A stretch of DNA of 64,000 nt from Pyrococcus kukulkanii (GTDB taxonomy: Archaea > Methanobacteriota_B > Thermococci > Thermococcales > Thermococcaceae), in the NCBI RefSeq assembly GCF_001577775.1, contig NZ_CP010835.1:1240001-1304000 (forward strand). The letters run 5' to 3'. Both the position numbers and the translations under genes were made by a program. Position 1 is the first letter of the stretch; each line of letters opens with the position of its first letter. Under the pieces are notes generated by a model that ran no database searches, had not been told where the DNA came from, and saw only the letters and a program-made list of their open reading frames with translations. Of this stretch, positions 2,727-13,649 are shown in pieces.

Positions 2727-3053
2727 CCACTGTTTGTGCGGTGGTAGTCTAGCCTGGTCTAGGACGCCGGCCTTCCGAGCCGGCGACCCGGGTTCAAATC
2801 CCGGCCACCGCACCATTCTTCTCTCCTTTTCAAGAACAGAGCCCAGAGCAGGCCCCTTTTTGGGAGAAAAGTCAGAAAGGGGTAGATTTTCATGAGAAAT
2901 ACTATCGGGCATGTCGAGCTGGGCGAGAAAATATTCTACAGCTAAATTCACGAACTGGCTGATAGTGTATCCTCTCGCTTGGATGGCCTCCTTCAGGTCT
3001 TTTCTCAATACTATGTGCACTCGGTCAAAACGAGTGGGTTTTGAGTGGGCCAT
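2664..3053 (-). CDS. intN: integrase N-terminal fragment (intN), ribbon-helix-helix
   Basis: Residues 1-79 come from the element: a ribbon-helix-helix fold (about 8-46, RVHIVLRKDLKEAIQARGYT then a helix ISQFVNLAVEYFLAQL) and a linker. The frame then runs through the attachment repeat (MVRWPGFEPGSPARKAG) and on, meaninglessly, antisense to tRNA-Gly and tRNA-Phe until a stop. In the excised circle these 79 residues join intC in frame, giving an integrase of about 390 residues. This splitting is the hallmark of SSV1-type (suicidal) integrases. A GGTGG ribosome site precedes the ATG at 3053. The RHH part may also bind the palindrome at 3087-3108. Confidence 0.85.
   Translation of the reverse strand: MAHSKPTRFDRVHIVLRKDLKEAIQARGYTISQFVNLAVEYFLAQLDMPDSISHENLPLSDFSPKKGPALGSVLEKERRMVRWPGFEPGSPARKAGVLDQARLPPHKQWWGGGDLNPRHPDLQSGALPG
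2738..2812 (+). tRNA. tRNA-Gly (TCC), integration site of the element
   Basis: The acceptor GCGGTGG pairs with CCACCGC. The anticodon stem CCGGC/GCCGG encloses CTTCCGA, giving anticodon TCC. The T arm is CCGGG-TTCAAAT-CCCGG, and CCA is encoded at 2813-2815. The gene stays complete because the element carries a copy of its 3' half; the second copy of that half lies at 10860-10916. Bases 2766-2822 are the left attachment repeat. Confidence 0.97.
2766..2822 (+). repeat. attL: 57-bp direct repeat, left copy
   Basis: From the anticodon stem of tRNA-Gly to 7 bases past its CCA, identical base for base to 10860-10916 and differing on both sides. It is the crossover region of a tRNA-targeting integrase. 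On the minus strand it encodes the integrase residues MVRWPGFEPGSPARKAG. Confidence 0.95.
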
Positions 3054-3086
3054 TGTGGACCACCTTCATAAGGTCGGCGGCCTCAA

Positions 3087-3108
3087 TATATCAATATTGT
3101 GATATATG
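3087..3108 (-). promoter_or_regulatory. palindrome in the integrase promoter
   Basis: Perfect inverted repeat ATATATCA - 6 bases - TGATATAT, 34 bases upstream of the intN ATG, over the AT-rich stretch where the TATA box must be. Ribbon-helix-helix proteins commonly bind such sites, so autoregulation by the integrase's own N-terminal domain is plausible; that is inference. Confidence 0.5.
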
Positions 3109-3712
3109 GACCTGGGCCGGGAACACAATGTTGTTCCCCCGCCGCCCTCTTCTATGCTTTGAAGATCTTTTCTCGTGTGGTCCCGGGTGCCCACCCGAGG
3201 TGACCCATATGAACACAATGTGTTTCCAGCTACGTGGACGAGATGCAAGCTCGAAAACACATTGTAGTTCCTGGGGAACTTCTTGTGTTTCCCAGGGAGA
3301 GCCACACCGAGTGGCTGGTCGCTACCCAGATTTGGGTAATAGTGCTGGAAGGTGGACATGGTATCCCGGAGGCAGGGCTTTTCTGCGGAGAAAAGTCTGC
3401 ACAGATTTGAGTAGTAGTGCACGCTTACATGCATGAAATTTTCTTCACATGAAAAGCGGGCCCGAGAGAGCCTTTTCTGGGGTTCTACTGTAGAACAAAC
3501 CAGGGCCGAGAAATTTTTGCTGAAGAATTTGGGGCCCGCTTGAGGAAAAAAACTCAATCCAAGCCCTTGCTAGGGCTGGGAGAATTTTCTCCGTGCACGA
3601 AAAGGGCAGAATTGCTTGGAGTTTGCCTGTCGAGGGCGAGCTAGTCAAAACGAGGGCGGAGGTTGTTGGAGTTGGTGGTAAGTTATCGTGAAAAAGTTAG
3701 AAAAGCAGGGGG
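3109..3712. other. no convincing gene; G+C-rich, repeat-bearing stretch
   Basis: Open frames here have no protein-like composition and no ribosome sites. Short related words (AACACAATGT, AAACACATTGT) occur several times in both orientations between 3119 and 3290, next to the integrase promoter. They may be protein-binding sites; nothing further is supported. Confidence 0.4.
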
Positions 3713-3913
3713 TCACAGGTCTCGTATCCTCCTGTATCGGCCCGAGGGCCGGAACTTGATACTAGTATCGACGGGATATGTTGCCACCTTCCAGAGGGCT
3801 TTCTTTGGGTTGGAGACTAATTCCTCATCGAACCTGTCGAGCCTCTCCAAGAGTTCCTCTCCTCTGCCTGCTAATTTTGCAATAAGTCCTAACAACCCGG
3901 CCACTTTCATCAC
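3713..3913 (-). CDS. possible small element protein (about 62-66 aa)
   Basis: The product is helical and charged (LLGLIAKLAGRGEELLERL then DRFDEELVSNPKKALWKV). A strong GGGGGTG ribosome site sits at the start, where GTG, ATG and a third GTG (3904) compete; the last has the best spacing. An AT-rich GTATAAC lies about 20 bases further upstream as a possible TATA box. The ribosome site and start region are repeated in decayed form at about 4010-4045, where a stop follows after five codons. I do not recognise a family. Composition and signals favour a real gene, but its size keeps confidence low. Confidence 0.45.
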   Translation of the reverse strand: MMKVAGLLGLIAKLAGRGEELLERLDRFDEELVSNPKKALWKVATYPVDTSIKFRPSGRYRRIRDL

Positions 3914-5087
3914 CCCCTTCGAGCCACCGTGTTATACTACGTGGTTTGGAAGAATAAATCCTGGGACCGGAGCAATCCTTATATATCACCTAATAGGAGT
4001 ATGTTATGACCCGGCCACCATCACCCCCTTCGGGCCCACCGCTCCTTACTTCTCCCTCTCCGCCCCCTCGTTTTGGCCCAGCCCCAGGAATTGAGCTGGG
4101 TCAAAGTGAGGTGGGAGGGTTTCGAGCAACTTGTTTGCTCGGTTTGTCGAGGGAAATCGAGCTGGAGAGATATTCTTTCGGGCTCGGAGAAGTTTGCTCG
4201 AAGGTTCGCTATGGTTGCGAACTTTCGAACAAGACCATATCGAGGAGATTTAGTATCAAAGCGGGGCGGGGAGATTTAGAGCCCAGAGCGGGCTTGCGAC
4301 TCTTCGAGCAAGACTTCTCCTTGCTTTATTTGTCAAGTAAAGCCTTTGGGGAGGAGTAATAGAGGCAGGAGATTGCCTGCGACGCTTCGAGCAAGACTTC
4401 TCAACGGATTATTTTGCCTAAAAAGCCCTCAGCAGGAAGTAATGGAGGCACGAGAAGTCTTGCGACTCTTCGAGCAAAGCATCTTATGACTTCTTTGGGT
4501 CGTAAGGAGCTGTTAGAGGGGACTTTGTTTGCTCGAAGGTTCGCAAAAGGGGGCCGAAAAAATACCCCCTTTTTATTGCGAATCTTCGAACATAGTTTTC
4601 CGGCCCGATTTTTTGAAAAAATCCTCTCAAAGGGATTGTTCGAAGGTGCGTGAGGGCTTGCGACTCTTCGAGCAAGACCTCTCGTGCTTTCTTTCGGGTC
4701 TTCGAGCAAACCTCTGAGGGCTTCGAACAAACCCTAAGGGTCAGGCCCTCGCACTATACCCTCGTTCCAATCCTGGGGCCTTGAGGTTGGTGGGTTCGGT
4801 CCCACATATACACCTTATTATGATTAGTAAGAGGGCCGGCCCCAGGATGTGTGGGCTGGGGGTGCACTTGGGTGTGGGTTGGCTCGGGCCCTGTATAGGG
4901 GCCGTATTCGGCACCATGCATAAATACCCTTACCTCAACACTTTGCTCGAAGGCTGGTCTCCGAGCGGGGGGTTGGTGTAAGGGGAGGTTCTGGAGGGTT
5001 AGGGGCGTAAGTGGTGTTCTGGGGATGGGTTGGTGTTGGTTGTTAGCCTTGGGTCTAGGTAAGGGGTTACTACTTGCAGGGGTAAGA

Positions 5088-5095
5088 TTTATACC
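5088..5095 (+). promoter_or_regulatory. TATA box of the element operon
   Basis: TTTATACC about 25 bases before a start predicted near 5118, inside the 22-bp palindrome at 5101-5122. This is the only good promoter ahead of the four-gene operon. Confidence 0.55.
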
Positions 5096-5100
5096 ACCTT

Positions 5101-5122
5101 GCTTCGAGCATATGCTCGAAGC
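5101..5122 (+). promoter_or_regulatory. 22-bp perfect palindrome, operator of the element operon
   Basis: GCTTCGAGCAT followed by its exact reverse complement, between the TATA box and the GGAGGTGAT ribosome site (from 5129) of the first gene. It is two face-to-face copies of the half-site that fills the region to the left. Its place at the transcription start suggests repression by an element-encoded protein, most simply the tandem winged-helix product just downstream. Confidence 0.75.
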
Positions 5123-5141
5123 AAACAGGAGGTGATGTAAG

Positions 5142-5723
5142 ATGCCCGAGGTCGAGGCCCAAACCCAAACTAAGATCGAGACCTCGAAGAGGAAAACCGA
5201 ATACGACCTCGAAGTAGTAGTCCCCCATAGGAAGCTAGTCCTTGCAGGGAGTTTGCTTGCTAAGGCGATGCCTCCCGTCGCAGTATTATCACCCGAGGAC
5301 GTGGAGGAGATGGCAAGGAAGATGAAGAGGACTTCAAGGACGGTCTTGGCCGCTCTGAGGTATTCTGGCCTCGTTTTGCTCCTCAGGAAGGATGGGAAGA
5401 AGCACTGGATATATCTCAAAGGTATGGACGTGGACACGATGAAGCGTGTGCTCTCGAAGAAGGCCAAGAGCTTGAACCCCTGGGCGAAGAAAGTTCTCGA
5501 GTATTCTCAGGAGGAAATCCACAGGATGGCCGAGGAGAAGGGTGTCAGCGTGAGGAAACTCCTCGCCAACCTCAAGGAAGACTATCTTGTAATCCGTCTC
5601 AAATACCCTCGAGAGATCAAGTATGTCATCTTCAAGGGCGTCAAGCTCTCGGAGGCCCTCAAGGCTCTAGAAGAGTTCACGAGAGTGCTCAATGGTCAGC
5701 CCCCAGAGGAGGTGAAAAACTAA
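5142..5723 (+). CDS. tandem winged-helix protein, candidate initiator/regulator
   Basis: 193 residues with an internal duplication: residues 49-95 and 121-167 align without gaps, sharing the pattern S.E...MA.......R..LA.L....LV..L followed by ..KG. Each unit reads as helix-helix-wing, that is, two winged-helix-like domains. The N-terminal 20 residues are charged and probably disordered. The gene is first in its operon, has a strong GGAGGTGAT ribosome site, and lies 20 bases after a perfect palindrome of the half-site repeated through 4121-5122. Two winged helices are also the architecture of bacterial iteron-binding Rep proteins. Binding of these repeats by this protein is inference; I recognise no named family. 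Confidence 0.7.
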   Translation: MPEVEAQTQTKIETSKRKTEYDLEVVVPHRKLVLAGSLLAKAMPPVAVLSPEDVEEMARKMKRTSRTVLAALRYSGLVLLLRKDGKKHWIYLKGMDVDTMKRVLSKKAKSLNPWAKKVLEYSQEEIHRMAEEKGVSVRKLLANLKEDYLVIRLKYPREIKYVIFKGVKLSEALKALEEFTRVLNGQPPEEVKN

Positions 5724-5756: not shown

Positions 5757-7223
5757 ATGGTGTTCTCAAGTGCTCAAATAAAGCTTGCGGCTCGGGCCCT
5801 CAAGGACTTGGCCGGCAAGCACGAGTTTGTGATTGTTGTCCCTGGGGACAGGCCGGGCCTGCAGGTTATGAGGGAGCACTCCGAGGAGGAGGTTGAGGAA
5901 ATAATCAAACAGGCCCTCCGGCAGGCCCAGGACCCGAGCAAGATATTTGTCTTCCACGACGATGAAATTGGCTGGGAGAAAGTGAATCTTGTTGAGCTCA
6001 TTGGCGGGGCAGGTAGCATATATGATGTATCAGGAGACATGAGACAGTCCGAGAACGAGGCCGAGGCCAAGCCCGAGGTTGAGGCTGGGGTCAAAACTGT
6101 TCCTGGGGCCGGGCCTGGGGGAGAACCTGAGGTCGAGGATGTCGAACTAGAGAAATCACTCGGGCCCGATGCTGGAGAGGTTAGTGAGGAGGAGATAAAA
6201 GTTGAGGGTGAGATTGGGGTTGTTAGTGAGGTTGGAGAAGTTCCTGGGGCTGGAGAGGTTGAGGGGGAGACTAGCGAAAGTGGTGAGAATGGCGGGAGTG
6301 AGGTCAAATCAGAGGGTGAAATGGTCATCGAGCTCGGGAAAACGAAGCTCACTAGGACTCACGTTGATTATGCTGAATACGACGTGAGCAGTTACGTTGT
6401 GAGCCTCCTCGCTCTGGTGGTGCACCGGGTTGCAAATGCTAAACAGGTAGTCTATGTAGAGGATATTGCGGCTACCATCAGCTACATCCTTAGTGTTGAG
6501 TATGGCATCGAGGACGATGCCCTCATCAGATTTTACATCAAGAAAGTGCTTGAACGGCTTAGGGACTTTGGCTGGGGCGTTGCCGAGCCCCAAACGACGG
6601 GGGACGTTGATGAAGATATCGTGAAGGAGTTCAAGGTTCTTGCAAGGGAGTGGGGCAAGACACTCACCGAGGCCGTGAAAGTGCTGTCGAGGAGGCCTTT
6701 TGAGTTTCTATTAGCAGACCAGATCTTCAGGCCGGGCAGGACTGACATCAAGCGTGAGGGTAACATGCTCGTCGTCTCTGAGAAGTTTATTCAGGACATA
6801 GAAACAGCCACGGGCTTGAAGCTCGACCCGGATGAGTTCTCCATTGTGCTCAAATACAAGCTCACCACAGCTCAGGGCGATGAAATGACTCTTTACGAGG
6901 CTGTCGCTGAGTTGAGAAAGGCCCTCATACAGTATAGGATTTACGAGGGAGTTCCACCAGAGACAGTTGCCCTTTCAAAACTTATGACTTATGGAGGGCC
7001 CTGGCTGAGGAAAGCTTTGAAGGTGCTTGAAGCCAAGAAGCTCCTGAGAGTTTCAAAAGGAAAGGCAAGGTTCACAGAGGAGCTTGTCGAGATGCTCGAT
7101 CTACCCCAGCAGGTCAGTCTATTCGATAATCTCGAGCAGGTCGTAGAGAAGAAGGCGGCATCGAAAGCATCCCTTGCAGACCTTGCTAGGGAGGAGGACG
7201 AGGAAGGGGGTGAGGAGCAATGA
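5757..7223 (+). CDS. unknown 488-aa element protein with acidic linker
   Basis: Three parts are visible. Residues 1-90 form a compact alpha/beta domain (KHEFVIVVPGDRPG, then a helix EEEVEEIIKQALRQA). Residues 91-188 are a low-complexity Glu/Gly/Val/Pro linker. Residues 190-488 are mostly helical with two to three possible winged-helix units (for example YGGPWLRKALKVLEAKKLLRVSKG near 405-428). The tail is acidic. The gene has a GGAGGTGAT ribosome site and overlaps the next gene by 4 bases. Its place beside a helicase and an origin-like region suggests a replication accessory or DNA-binding scaffold, but no catalytic motif is visible. Confidence 0.65.
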   Translation: MVFSSAQIKLAARALKDLAGKHEFVIVVPGDRPGLQVMREHSEEEVEEIIKQALRQAQDPSKIFVFHDDEIGWEKVNLVELIGGAGSIYDVSGDMRQSENEAEAKPEVEAGVKTVPGAGPGGEPEVEDVELEKSLGPDAGEVSEEEIKVEGEIGVVSEVGEVPGAGEVEGETSESGENGGSEVKSEGEMVIELGKTKLTRTHVDYAEYDVSSYVVSLLALVVHRVANAKQVVYVEDIAATISYILSVEYGIEDDALIRFYIKKVLERLRDFGWGVAEPQTTGDVDEDIVKEFKVLAREWGKTLTEAVKVLSRRPFEFLLADQIFRPGRTDIKREGNMLVVSEKFIQDIETATGLKLDPDEFSIVLKYKLTTAQGDEMTLYEAVAELRKALIQYRIYEGVPPETVALSKLMTYGGPWLRKALKVLEAKKLLRVSKGKARFTEELVEMLDLPQQVSLFDNLEQVVEKKAASKASLADLAREEDEEGGEEQ

Positions 7224-7735
7224 AAGTCATTGATGACGTGAACGCTCTCAAGAAGGCCCTCACGGCCCTCCTACTCAAATACTACCCTCAAGGCCGGGTC
7301 GAGGTTGAAACAAGAGTCGCAGCGGTGGCGAAGCACTTGCAGGACGCTGGCTTCGAGCTCCTCGACAATAATACCAGTAATGTAATATACAGACTGAGGA
7401 GCCGCCCCCTCATCGAAGACCCTACCTCGGTAGAAATTGCAATCAGCCTGCTTGAGGGCGGGTTTGTTGATAGGATATGGGTCGAAGTCCCCATTGTGAG
7501 GCCTAGGTGGAATGTGCTGCATGTGGGTGAGGACGAGGGGATTTTCACTAGGAAAGTGGCGATGAAGGCATCGAGGGCTGGAACCGTTGTGAGGGTTGAA
7601 ATACTACCAAAAAGCACGATTGGCGTCGTCCTAGGAGAGCTCGTTGTTGATACGGCAATCTTTCCACGCCGCCAAGTTACCCTCGAAACAGTCCTCTCAA
7701 TCTACTTGAAGCCGGAGGTGGTGCAGGATGCCTGA
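7220..7735 (+). CDS. unknown 171-aa element protein
   Basis: A soluble alpha/beta protein without recognised motifs: an N-terminal helical part (INDVN-like ALKKALTALLLKY), then several beta segments. It overlaps its upstream neighbour by 4 bases (ATGA) and the helicase gene by 8, with a GGTG ribosome site, so its synthesis is coupled to both. Strict co-expression suggests it acts with the helicase, perhaps as a loader or partner; that is inference from position only. Confidence 0.6.
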   Translation: MKVIDDVNALKKALTALLLKYYPQGRVEVETRVAAVAKHLQDAGFELLDNNTSNVIYRLRSRPLIEDPTSVEIAISLLEGGFVDRIWVEVPIVRPRWNVLHVGEDEGIFTRKVAMKASRAGTVVRVEILPKSTIGVVLGELVVDTAIFPRRQVTLETVLSIYLKPEVVQDA

Positions 7736-9284
7736 GTTCCTGAAAAAGCTAATCGGGCCCCCGGGGACAGGGAAAACCCGCTGGATAATGACCCAAATCC
7801 TCGGCCTTCACGAGGGCAAGAAAAAGGTGTTAGAAGAATACGGGCTGGAGGGGGCGCTCTGGGGCGAGGAGCTTGCATTCGCCACGCTTGAAAACTCGGC
7901 CTTGAGAGAGCTCCTCGGCAGGATAGGCTATGAGGACAGGGCTGGCTGGATGAGGACTGTGGACGGGATAGTTATTCGTGCATTAGCGATTGCGGGGAGG
8001 GTCGAGAACCCTCCCAACCCTCTCATCTTTGAAAGTGTGCTCTTGAAGGTGGCGAGGCGGTTTAGACTAAACTTGGAGCTGGTCAAGGAACGCATCAACA
8101 ATTTCACCTATTTGATAAACAACTTGAGGGTCGAAGAGGCAAAGGAATACGCTCAAAGCGACCTCATTGTTGGGGAATGGCTAAAATTGCTGGCTGAGAA
8201 GGGTGTAAAACCCTTTGAGTTGTATAAGCTCGATCTCCTCAATGATGTGGAGGCGGTCAGGGATGAGATAGTGCACGCCAAGACACCTCACCTGCTACCC
8301 AAGCTCATGTTTGTAGACGAGGCGCAGGATCTTAGCAGGCTCGACTGGCTCGTTTTGACGAGGCTGTTCGCTGAGAGCAAGTTTGTCATCGTCGGAGACG
8401 ACCTGCAGGCGATTTTCTCCTTCAGAGGGGCTGACTACAGGGTTTTCGAGAGCATCAAGGCCGGGCGGGTCGAAGTGCTTGACAAGTCCTATCGCCTGCC
8501 CCAAGATATTATCGATGTCGCCAAGGCATATATCAAGCGGATGGTAGGGAAATACTATGACTTCAGAGCGGTGGATGAGAGCAAGCAGGCTGAGTTCTAC
8601 ATCCTACCCCCTAACCAGGCCCTCAGGTTCGCAATCGAGCTGGCACGCAAGGGGTTCAGCGTGCAGATACTCACAAGGACTTCTAAGACTGCTTCGGAGC
8701 TAAGACTGTTACTTTGGAGTGCGGGGATATTTGCTGATGACTTGGCGGGCTCGGTGCTGGAGAAGGTCGAGCGGTTCAGAGAGCTCCTTAGGCTCCTCGC
8801 CGTGGCCCGGAAGAAAAAGGCGTTCACTGAAGAACAGGAGAAGAAGTTCCAGAAGCTGGCGTGGGAGTTTCTAAGACCTGACGCCCGTCAAAGAGTAAAC
8901 GAAATCTTCAAGCAACCGGCCTTACTTAGGCAGGGGAGGCTCGACCAACTCCTCGACCTCAAGAACGATGACGTTTGGCCTGACGTATTGGTCGCCTACT
9001 TGGCCTACAAGCAGACACCGCTGAAGCTCTACGTGGACACGATGCATGCGGCGAAAGGGACAGAGAGCGACTACACTGTGATCTGGGGTGATTTCCACAG
9101 AAGAGCCCCTGACCCCGGGGAAGAGGCAAGGGTGGTCTATGTGGCGATCACTCGTGCCAGAAAGGGCATCATCATAGACAATATCATGAACCCCTACCTA
9201 ATCCCCCTGCTCGATATCCTCAATGAGAAGGTGGACGTGAAGACCCAGCCGGCCCGGCCTGTGGAGGCCGAGGCCTCGCCCTGA
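7728..9284 (+). CDS. UvrD/Rep-like superfamily 1 DNA helicase
   Basis: ATP-driven DNA strand separation, presumably for element replication. The 518-residue protein has Walker A GPPGTGKT (10-17), Walker B FVDEAQD (about 195-201), motif III VGDDLQAIFSFRG (about 220-232), motif IV-like LDKSYRLPQ, motif V TMHAAKGTESD (about 437-447) and motif VI VYVAITRARKG (about 470-480). It is shorter than bacterial UvrD and keeps only small inserts. Last gene of the operon. Plasmids of the pTN2 type in Thermococcales also carry an SF1 helicase, but their primase-polymerase is missing here. Confidence 0.92.
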   Translation: MPEFLKKLIGPPGTGKTRWIMTQILGLHEGKKKVLEEYGLEGALWGEELAFATLENSALRELLGRIGYEDRAGWMRTVDGIVIRALAIAGRVENPPNPLIFESVLLKVARRFRLNLELVKERINNFTYLINNLRVEEAKEYAQSDLIVGEWLKLLAEKGVKPFELYKLDLLNDVEAVRDEIVHAKTPHLLPKLMFVDEAQDLSRLDWLVLTRLFAESKFVIVGDDLQAIFSFRGADYRVFESIKAGRVEVLDKSYRLPQDIIDVAKAYIKRMVGKYYDFRAVDESKQAEFYILPPNQALRFAIELARKGFSVQILTRTSKTASELRLLLWSAGIFADDLAGSVLEKVERFRELLRLLAVARKKKAFTEEQEKKFQKLAWEFLRPDARQRVNEIFKQPALLRQGRLDQLLDLKNDDVWPDVLVAYLAYKQTPLKLYVDTMHAAKGTESDYTVIWGDFHRRAPDPGEEARVVYVAITRARKGIIIDNIMNPYLIPLLDILNEKVDVKTQPARPVEAEASP

Positions 9285-9974: not shown

Positions 9975-10910
9975 TCATGGTAGATGGGAATAAACCTCAC
10001 CCTTGAGCCAGCTCAAATACTCCTTCATGGTCTCGAGGGAGAGCGTGAAGAGGTTCAGGTAGTGTCTCGCAAGGATAGAACGTGCAGTCCGGCCCTGCAC
10101 GTAATCTATGACCTCAGGAGATACCCCCAGCCGAGCTAGATACGTTGCTTGGGTCTTCCTCAGCTTGTGCCACTTTATCCCGTGCTCTCTCGAATACTTC
10201 TCCAGCACGACAGTCGAAACATAAGGCTTTGACCTTATGAAGTAGTCAGCCGTCTCCTTGAGGCAAAAACAGTAGAAAGCCCGCTTGGTCTTGTTATCCT
10301 TCTGTAGCACTACCCACGAGACTTCGCCCTCGGTCTGATACTTCTTTTTATGGAGCATGCTGACGGCAAGGGCGAGCTCGCTCCTCCTCAGCCCGCTCTC
10401 TATTCCGAGCCTGATAAGGTAGTATAATCTCTCATCCCGCCTCCTGAACTTCCTGAGTAATCTTGTAAGTTCCTCAGGAGTGTAAAACTCGACGAGCCCT
10501 CCGCCCTCGCTTTGGGACGGCACCTTGACAGTAGATAGCCAAAACTCGGTCTCTTCTGGCAGTAGAAGATTTCTTTCTGCCAGAAATCGCACGAAGACCC
10601 TCAAGGCCTTGGCTTGGTTCTTGGACTTGAATTCTCTAAGCTCGCCGAGGGCGAGCTTAGTTATCACATTGCAATATATGTTGTAAGTCTTCTTGGAGGA
10701 GAGCTGGCCCGCCAAATACTTGCAAAAGTCTTCTATTTGAGTTTGGGCCAGCCATACTAGCCGCTTATAGAGATAGCACCGGACGCCTTTGTTTTGCGAG
10801 TAGTCCTCCCCCCGGCTTTCTTTTGCTGTTTGGGGCGGTAGTCTGCTCCTATTTGCCCAGCCGGCCTTCCGAGCCGGCGACCCGGGTTCAAATCCCGGCC
10901 ACCGCACCAT
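9975..10910 (-). CDS. intC: integrase C-terminal fragment (intC), tyrosine recombinase
   Basis: The catalytic part of an SSV1-type integrase. Residues 1-17 (MVRWPGFEPGSPARKAG) are encoded by the attachment repeat and also appear in intN. A core-binding helical domain follows (about 45-110), then the catalytic domain with Arg175/176 (SGLRRSEL), a likely Lys near 204-208, the HKLR box (His258, Arg261) and the nucleophile Tyr294 in ARHYLNL. The active-site set looks complete. In the integrated state it has lost its promoter and N-terminal 79 residues, so it is probably not made. Excision would then need integrase from elsewhere. Confidence 0.92.
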   Translation of the reverse strand: MVRWPGFEPGSPARKAGWANRSRLPPQTAKESRGEDYSQNKGVRCYLYKRLVWLAQTQIEDFCKYLAGQLSSKKTYNIYCNVITKLALGELREFKSKNQAKALRVFVRFLAERNLLLPEETEFWLSTVKVPSQSEGGGLVEFYTPEELTRLLRKFRRRDERLYYLIRLGIESGLRRSELALAVSMLHKKKYQTEGEVSWVVLQKDNKTKRAFYCFCLKETADYFIRSKPYVSTVVLEKYSREHGIKWHKLRKTQATYLARLGVSPEVIDYVQGRTARSILARHYLNLFTLSLETMKEYLSWLKGEVYSHLP

Positions 10911-10916
10911 TCTTCT
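10860..10916 (+). repeat. attR: 57-bp direct repeat, right copy
   Basis: Exact copy of 2766-2822 (tRNA-Gly 3' half plus 7 bases past CCA). Upstream of it the element sequence only loosely resembles the tRNA 5' half, so no second functional tRNA is formed. Chromosomal DNA resumes at 10917. Confidence 0.95.
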
Positions 10917-11395: not shown

Positions 11396-13649
11396 GTTCC
11401 AATAAGACTAAAAGAGAATTGAAAGACAAGAACATAGAAGCTGTAGCGCGGTTTGGCCAAGGTTCCAATAAGACTAAAAGAGAATTGAAAGCCCGTGCTC
11501 AGGGCCCTGGGCGTGGAGGACGTGAAGGTTCCAATAAGACTAAAAGAGAATTGAAAGCATCGACGATTCTGAGGACTAACGCTATCGTTACCGCGTTCCA
11601 ATAAGACTAAAAGAGAATTGAAAGATCATGGCTAAAGTTGCCTTTTAGCTCGGGGATTAGTGTTCCAATAAGACTAAAAGAGAATTGAAAGAGGGCATTA
11701 TTGGTACCGCACCGACAAGATCCAGTTCAGTTCCAATAAGACTAAAAGAGAATTGAAAGGTGTTGGTTCTGACAAGTCCAGTTGAGTCAAAACGCGTTCC
11801 AATAAGACTAAAAGAGAATTGAAAGGTGGGTTCCTGACCACATCCTCTGGGTCAAAACCCCAGTTCCAATAAGACTAAAAGAGAATTGAAAGTTAGTCGT
11901 GTCCACCGAGTCGGGAGCGTAGAAGAGGAGTTCCAATAAGACTAAAAGAGAATTGAAAGACGCTCAACGTGTTCTGCTTCACCCTGATACTTTGCAAGTT
12001 CCAATAAGACTAAAAGAGAATTGAAAGACACCTTCTTCATCTCGGCATCGCTCATTCTCCTCGCGAGTTCCAATAAGACTAAAAGAGAATTGAAAGAGAC
12101 TCTTTCCAGCCAGTTGTGAATCCCTTCTCGAAGGTTCCAATAAGACTAAAAGAGAATTGAAAGGGATTTCCCCGACCCGGGGTCCCCTGTCAGGGTAATT
12201 GTTCCAATAAGACTAAAAGAGAATTGAAAGTCTTCAGCTCCAACGGAGTTATAGGCTCTGAATCGTAGGTTCCAATAAGACTAAAAGAGAATTGAAAGAT
12301 GGATAGATTGCCCAAATGGGTGTAATAGTGTTGTAAGAACGAGTTCCAATAAGACTAAAAGAGAATTGAAAGGGTGCAGCACTACTTCAAGAAGATGTTT
12401 CCCGCTCCTGGTTCCAATAAGACTAAAAGAGAATTGAAAGTTATCATGCATCTCAAAGCAAATCCAGAAATGTGGAGAGTTCCAATAAGACTAAAAGAGA
12501 ATTGAAAGTCTTGTTCTAGCTCTCTTAGCACTTCATAGAGCTTCGTTCCAATAAGACTAAAAGAGAATTGAAAGGTGGTTTTACTGGCAAATAGTGGTTC
12601 CTTGGCCACTGTTCCAATAAGACTAAAAGAGAATTGAAAGACCAGACTGCGGGATTTAGGACGGCAACAATACCAGGTTCCAATAAGACTAAAAGAGAAT
12701 TGAAAGTCATATAAGGGTTGGGTGTTGAGGATGTCAAGGATGTGTTCCAATAAGACTAAAAGAGAATTGAAAGCGTCGCGGGGTCAGAAAGGGCTTTTAG
12801 CGAGGGCTTGCGGTTCCAATAAGACTAAAAGAGAATTGAAAGACCTATCAAGAACACGCCTCATCTCCTCCGCCTCCCCGTTCCAATAAGACTAAAAGAG
12901 AATTGAAAGTCACGAGCTTTCTATCTCCCTGCGTCGTAATGTCTCGTGTTCCAATAAGACTAAAAGAGAATTGAAAGAGAGGCTCTTCCTGCAAGTGGTC
13001 CTTCCCTCAGTATGTTCCAATAAGACTAAAAGAGAATTGAAAGACGTATCCCCACACCTCGCCGGCAATCGCTTCTATAGGTTCCAATAAGACTAAAAGA
13101 GAATTGAAAGTGTCAAAAATCACCTGGCCCTCCGTCACGGCTTCCTCGTTCCAATAAGACTAAAAGAGAATTGAAAGAGGGTTCGTAGTGGCCGAACTGT
13201 GCCATTCTGTCGAGTTCCAATAAGACTAAAAGAGAATTGAAAGTATATGGACAAAACGGTCTTAACAGAAAACAATATAAGGGTTCCAATAAGACTAAAA
13301 GAGAATTGAAAGGAGGGCAAGGAGTACACCATAGAGTCCCGCAACCTCACGTTCCAATAAGACTAAAAGAGAATTGAAAGCTCTTGTCATACCAGATGCC
13401 GTTTGCTGGGTCAATTGGTTCCAATAAGACTAAAAGAGAATTGAAAGAGAATCTTCTTCGCCTGCATTTCCTCCAGGACTTTGTTGGTGGCGTTCCAATA
13501 AGACTAAAAGAGAATTGAAAGCAAGAAAAACTACGATACCATAACGGACGATGAGTTGTTCCAATAAGACTAAAAGAGAATTGAAAGATAACTGCACATG
13601 ATACAAAACCTATAACAAAGCCAGGTTCCAATAAGACTAAAAGAGAATT
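11396..13649 (+). CRISPR. CRISPR array, 34 repeats / 33 spacers
   Basis: A 30-base repeat starting GTTCCAATAAGACTAAAAGA and ending GAATTGAAAG occurs 33 times in full from 11396; the 34th (13625-13649) loses its last bases, marking the distal end. Spacers are mostly 35-39 bases, with two of 44 (12299-12342 and 13448-13491). The repeat end ATTGAAAG is the 8-base crRNA 5' tag known from P. furiosus, giving transcription to the right. No cas genes lie in the window, so processing depends on Cas6 and effectors encoded elsewhere. Many spacers read as open protein-coding fragments in one frame. Confidence 0.98.

Follow-up and report, generated by a model that had tools for sequence, protein, structure and literature searches.

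The question raised by this locus is what a gene-free kilobase, crowded with copies of one short motif and lying directly ahead of a gene for a 193-aa putative DNA-binding protein, does in the chromosome of Pyrococcus kukulkanii. The window analysed here is the whole 64,000-nt stretch of DNA that holds the locus. It is apparent from the borders that the 193-aa gene is not an ordinary chromosomal gene; its locus is an 8.09-kb plasmid integrated in tRNA-Gly. The principal features of the element, in window coordinates, are as follows.

2738-2815: tRNA-Gly (ARAGORN)
2766-2822: attL core, a 57-bp direct repeat matching 10860-10916 exactly; inside/after tRNA-Gly
2766-3053, minus strand: int(N), the N-terminal part of the split integrase (rejoins int(C) in frame)
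5142-5723, plus strand: predicted tandem winged-helix protein (self-alignment, profile, AlphaFold2), 193 aa, putative binder of array and operator
5757-7223, plus strand: putative replication protein, 488 aa; residues 184-314 resemble the C-terminal domain of the primase-polymerase encoded by a related element
7220-7735, plus strand: 171-aa protein, no family match at the curated cut-off
7728-9284, plus strand: SF1 (UvrD/Rep-like) helicase, 518 aa, of the pTN2 plasmid family
9975-10910, minus strand: int(C), the catalytic part of the integrase (Pfam Phage_integr_3, E=1.5e-20)
10860-10916: attR core, a 57-bp direct repeat matching 2766-2822 exactly

When joined across the 57-bp att repeat, int(N) and int(C) form one in-frame ORF. 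As in SSV-type integrative elements, the integrase is split by integration and its halves rejoin at att. A tRNA remnant at attR (10835-10906) passed the Rfam tRNA threshold (38.9 bits) and was not called by ARAGORN; the Rfam scan returned tRNAs only. The N-terminus of the integrase (2928-3053, MAHSKPTRFDRVHIVLRKDLKEAIQARGYTISQFVNLAVEYFL) is ribbon-helix-helix-like by eye, for which Pfam gave no confirmation. Three copies of AACACAATGT lie at 3122-3265, immediately 5' of the integrase start at 3053, one of them partly palindromic (AACACAATGTGTT at 3212); they are possibly an operator or integrase arm-type sites. Starting about 480 bp past attR, 11396-13590 of the window holds a CRISPR array with 33 repeats of GTTCCAATAAGACTAAAAGAGAATTGAAAG, and none of its 32 spacers matched the element or those related plasmids that were compared with it.

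Four genes of the element, encoding proteins of 193, 488, 171 and 518 aa, form an operon, in which genes 2 to 4 overlap by 4 bp and then by 8 bp. The sequence-only reading of this DNA had described a replicon 'without a known initiator', and had missed the integrated plasmid with its pTN2-family SF1 helicase and 488-aa protein. The helicase shows about 25-30% identity to the pTN2 family, with pTN2 and pCIR10 leading the plasmid matches (25-26% over 93% of the protein); helicase-based scans of genome and viral contigs returned distant helicases only. The 171-aa gene sits between the 488-aa gene and the helicase gene. Two genes are common to all eight family plasmids, one of them encoding a protein of ~170 aa with a coiled coil plus a winged helix.

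The 488-aa protein matches, at residues 184-314, the C-terminal part of the primase-polymerase of L038, a related element described below (z=27), and its residues 382-437 show a very weak GntR-type similarity (Pfam, E=0.08). Searches of the window's element revealed no primase domain, and comparison of the 488-aa protein with pTN2 or pEXT9a proteins (including pEXT9a gp16, and with profiles) gave no significant link. Its structure model (pLDDT 46) was too poor for use.

Because of its helicase and layout, the element was filed in the pTN2/pEXT9a superfamily, with a tentative replication-protein link. Shared with these plasmids are an SF1 helicase encoded behind a replication protein (a putative one in the window's element), a large repeat-bearing gap with a skew-predicted origin ahead of the operon, and modular replication proteins, some of which lack a primase-polymerase domain. 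Unlike those plasmids, the window's element is integrated via a split integrase.

About a dozen half-sites had been reported in the gap, and this was confirmed: between 4121 and 4951 there are nine exact copies of TTCGAGCAA (4121+, 4194-, 4303+, 4386+, 4469+, 4529-, 4667+, 4701+ and 4943-) and four near copies (TTCGAACAA at 4224+, 4636- and 4722+; TTCGAACAT at 4585+). Half of the 18 exact copies in the whole 1,977,126-bp genome fall within this 0.83-kb array. The commonest 9-mer of 3054-5141 occurs ten times, whereas in 98 other 2-kb stretches of the window the commonest 9-mer reaches four copies at most; in 300 runs of Markov-simulated sequence the commonest 9-mer averaged 2.3 copies, and the largest count was 7.

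The half-sites are real, but the repeat unit is larger. Alignment of the half-sites reveals that most copies of TTCGAGCAA form the right-hand part of a longer, 18-bp composite, TTGCGA-MNY-TTCGARCAA, the left block of which, TTGCGA, stands at a fixed spacing and has a conservation of its own (0.4-1.1 bits per column at -9 to -4), as expected for a two-domain reader. Eight composite copies with no more than one mismatch were found, all in 4194-4675 and six of them in the same direction, and no site elsewhere in the genome has fewer than two mismatches. Allowing up to two mismatches adds two places outside the array in the genome, both with two mismatches; up to three gives ten sites in the array and 12 in the 64-kb window, where 0.8 would be expected. 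The sites and the features associated with them are listed below.

4121-4951: gene-free array of half-sites and 18-bp composite sites, putative iterons/origin
4121-4129, plus strand: half-site without a left partner
4194-4211, minus strand: composite site, one mismatch
4215-4232, plus strand: composite site, exact
4291-4477: 83-bp tandem repeat, 2.3 copies, holding three composite sites
4294-4311, plus strand: composite site, exact
4377-4394, plus strand: composite site, one mismatch
4460-4477, plus strand: composite site, exact
4529-4546, minus strand: composite site, exact
4541-4623: AT-richest stretch of the gene-free region (AT 0.59 in 4541-4620), within the array; candidate melting element
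4576-4593, plus strand: composite site, one mismatch
4636-4653, minus strand: degenerate composite site, three mismatches
4658-4675, plus strand: composite site, exact
4692-4709, plus strand: degenerate composite site, three mismatches
4722-4730, plus strand: half-site TTCGAACAA without a left partner
4943-4951, minus strand: half-site without a left partner, about 150 bp ahead of the operator

Three inverted pairs of sites in the array are capable of forming hairpins, with z scores against shuffled sequence of -4.0 and -6.0 (much better folding) and -2.3 (a modest difference). Helical phasing of the site spacing was not significant (p=0.23), and no strong AT-rich melting element was found in the gene-free region.

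Between the array and the 193-aa gene lie two further features.

5088-5095, plus strand: TATA-like box TTTATACC, putative, identified by its sequence
5099-5124: perfect palindrome of 26 bp, putative operator (TTGCTTCGAGCAT/ATGCTCGAAGCAA)

This palindrome had been described as 22 bp long; it is indeed perfect and situated at the promoter of the 193-aa gene, but extends to 26 bp. No other perfect palindrome of at least 18 bp occurs in the 64 kb. Its halves are two copies of TTCGAGCAT, and in each arm TTGC is fused to TTCGAGCA; both elements recur from the array, at a different spacing. The core CTTCGAGCA is common to array and operator and has few copies elsewhere. The palindrome starts 3 bp past the TATA-like box and stops 17 bp short of the start codon, a position which, given the usual archaeal TATA spacing, should cover the transcription start.

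For pTN2- and pEXT9a-like plasmids, repeats and the GC-skew minimum have led to the prediction that the origin lies in the large gap ahead of the replication operon (PMC3543421). The same check had been proposed for the present locus, and its outcome agrees with an origin there: the detrended GC skew of the element has its minimum at 4086 and switches at the edge of the array. Skew within the gene-free DNA rises from 0.004 (3054-4086) to 0.216 (4087-5141), and since the jump lies inside gene-free DNA, coding direction alone does not explain it. Part of the switch could come from duplication of the array or from transcription. Repeats were confirmed in the same gap of pTN2, pIRI48, pCIR10, pP12-1, pEXT9a and pMETVU01, several of them as 9-10-bp tandems. 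Their motifs are mostly plasmid-specific, pCIR10 and pP12-1 sharing GACAAGACT. None of the eight family plasmids has a perfect palindrome of its own repeat motif at the operon promoter.

The 193-aa protein had been read as an internal duplication (residues 49-95 with 121-167) with each half winged-helix-like; the duplication was upheld, and the winged-helix likeness is backed by a prediction of modest confidence. Its best self-alignment scores 60, as compared with a maximum of 54 in 300 shuffles, and the duplicated stretches are residues about 46-106 and 118-183. A profile made from both halves and two relatives finds two matches in the protein (E about 1e-30, the halves being themselves in the profile) and, when run against the PDB, weakly resembles winged helices of the CRP and MarR types. 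In the AlphaFold2 model, which is modest (mean pLDDT 62, from an alignment of three rows), the order strand-helix-helix-strand-strand-helix is predicted twice: E46-49, H51-60, H65-75, E76-83, E86-93 and H97-106 (block pLDDT about 67-87), and E118-122, H123-132, H137-142, E148-154, E159-165 and H169-183 (block pLDDT 57-76). Both halves are predicted to be winged helices. A recent domain duplication was considered and dropped; each half scores higher against a 128-aa relative than against the other half, so that the duplication is old or the protein is a fusion of paralogues.

The sequence-only reading had compared the locus with bacterial iteron plasmids and their Rep proteins. That logic is supported by the iteron/operator anatomy, by the predicted pair of winged helices and by the position of the gene, beside the array at the head of a replication operon, but the sequence tests for Rep_3 failed: the 193-aa protein has no Rep_3 match in Pfam up to E=1, sequence searches of the PDB found no Rep, and PF01051 matched nowhere in the protein's own genome. 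Membership of the Rep_3/RepE family is not supported by sequence. In the structure comparison, RepE54/Rep chains were the top 13 Foldseek matches of the model in the PDB (E 0.008-0.036), but with a TM-score of about 0.2, so that the domain orientation is unmatched. These matches are best regarded as a weak lead and not as homology; in a weak control, RepE was not among the fold matches of the low-confidence 488-aa model. A search of BFVD for similar folds gave nothing significant. No relatives of the 193-aa protein were found in plasmids, phages or IMG/VR contigs, and no convincing tandem winged-helix homologue in the pTN2/pEXT9a plasmids. At G104:C72:3940-4275, in another genome belonging to this class, the N-terminal part of Rep_3 matched with 23.2 bits, which exceeds the curated cut-off; this is unusual for an archaeon and might be contamination.

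A profile search of 115 genomes of the phylum found matches only in the protein's own genome and in another genome of the genus, G007. The latter carries two related integrated elements, L037 (intact) and L038 (decayed). Like the window's element, they are integrated at a tRNA, carry a tyrosine-type integrase and have a winged-helix homologue upstream of a replication protein; they differ from it in having one winged helix rather than two, in possessing a primase-polymerase and in having no array of an operator motif. L037 encodes, in order, a single-winged-helix protein of 128 aa, a primase-polymerase of 688 aa (pTN2-type profile match, E 2e-14), a 169-aa protein and a helicase with 39% identity to that of the window. 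L038 contains a single-winged-helix gene (133 aa), a 155-aa gene and a primase-polymerase divided by a frame break. In both elements the winged-helix gene thus closely precedes replication genes that include a primase-polymerase. A search of plasmids and phages for relatives of the 128-aa protein found none.

As in the window, a palindrome follows the TATA box of the L037 winged-helix gene: CGGTGCGTAA-CT-TTACGCACCG stands directly past TTTATACC, with a sequence unlike that of the window palindrome, and a degenerate copy is present at a second L037 promoter. The position of the operator is therefore conserved and its sequence changed, and the occurrence of a palindrome at the promoter of a homologous gene fits autoregulation by the encoded protein. 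L037 has few copies of its operator motif and no array, from which it follows that an operator binder need not, in general, be an origin binder. Similar palindromes occur in the gaps of L037 (11661-11678, TTTCCAAAATTTTGGAAA) and L038 (3683-3699, CTTGGAAATTTTCCAAG), and it is possible that they represent a different origin motif.

The explanation that we favour, at roughly even chances, is that the locus is the origin and autoregulated replication operon of an integrative plasmid of the pTN2/pEXT9a type, with the 193-aa protein binding both array and operator. The protein would repress its own operon (193, 488 and 171 aa and the helicase) via the palindrome over the presumed start site. It would also bind the 18-bp composites, one domain on TTGCGA and the other on TTCGARCAA. 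With the array serving as the plasmid origin, the bound protein may shape or melt it, possibly at the AT-rich 4541-4623, and may recruit the 488-aa protein and the SF1 helicase. Re-use of the core in the operator would tie expression of the operon to copy number.

In the F plasmid, the operator is an inverted repeat of the iteron core. The putative operator examined here is likewise an inverted repeat of the array core; directly repeated, iteron-like sites and a core re-used in inverted form, as in Rep_3/RepE-type systems, are both present, at a putative origin. In Rep_3/RepE-type systems a monomer of the initiator binds the iterons and a dimer the operator. Two winged helices per chain (predicted in this case) and iterons of similar size (17-22 bp) are further points in common with RepE/Rep_3 initiators. 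Unlike those of Rep_3 systems, the sites are widely spaced (three of them 83 bp start-to-start) and in both orientations, not in tight tandem. No DnaA is known in archaea. By analogy, the locus looks as though it works like an iteron system.

A rather unlikely alternative is that the 193-aa protein is an autorepressor or copy-number regulator only, the array being extra operator DNA or a titration site, with the 488-aa protein and the helicase as initiator, in the same region or elsewhere. L037, with its operator and single-winged-helix gene yet no array of that motif, is consistent with this, as is the fact that the family replicates by means of proteins of the primase-polymerase type. A precedent is pRN1 of Sulfolobus, in which the first gene of the replication operon encodes a small repressor, Orf56, upstream of the replicase (PMC4234260). 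The window's element resembles pRN1 in that a small DNA-binding repressor, putative here, leads the replication operon; it differs in that Orf56 is a ribbon-helix-helix and not a winged-helix protein, the orf904 replicase keeps primase-polymerase and helicase, and the origin is thought to be a downstream stem-loop, without iterons (PMC4234260). A pure repressor, however, has no need of ten 18-bp composites as far as 1 kb upstream. Moreover, the array is where the GC skew switches, and the published origin predictions for the family use the same gap (PMC3543421).

The sequence-only reading had also entertained partition, and we consider it improbable that the locus is a single-protein segregation or stability locus, in which, with no ParA, the 193-aa protein would occupy both a centromere-like array and the promoter of its own gene. 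Segregation of this kind has been proposed for StbA of R388 and Par of pSK1. The array does adjoin the promoter of a putative DNA-binding protein that is probably autoregulated, and the mixed site orientations and 83-bp spacing are compatible with a centromere. However, a Pfam scan found no ParA/ParM/TubZ-type NTPase among the element's gene products, which also disfavours a module in the ParABS sense, and the 193-aa gene leads a replication operon and its relatives precede primase-polymerase genes; for these reasons partition is the less likely function. It is more doubtful still that the array is the target of some other factor (the 488-aa protein, the integrase or a host protein) which also regulates the operon, hence the operator likeness. 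The very weak GntR-type match in the 488-aa protein and the winged-helix end reported for pEXT9a-like replication proteins speak for such a factor; against it, the two-block composite suits a two-domain reader, and L037 keeps the operator position past the TATA box, together with the winged-helix gene, at a different sequence.

A further proposal, which we advance tentatively and hold to be unlikely as it stands, is that this is an archaeal iteron-type initiator whose origin was independent of bacterial Rep. On a plasmid with a primase-polymerase, an autorepressor with one winged helix would have become an iteron-binding initiator with two, its operator core being amplified into an origin array and the plasmid's own primase domain dispensed with. 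What is new here is the predicted two-winged-helix regulator, the sharing of a core between array and operator, and the existence of a replicon of this kind in which no primase domain is visible. Little is understood about origins and initiators in small archaeal plasmids. Should the 193-aa protein prove to bind the array and to initiate replication, the iteron/operator logic of bacteria would be found in an archaeal replicon seemingly without a primase domain of its own. The element would then provide a compact, heat-stable system of 8 kb and an evolutionary series in which one winged helix becomes two, and the origin predictions for the pTN2/pEXT9a superfamily would become directly testable.
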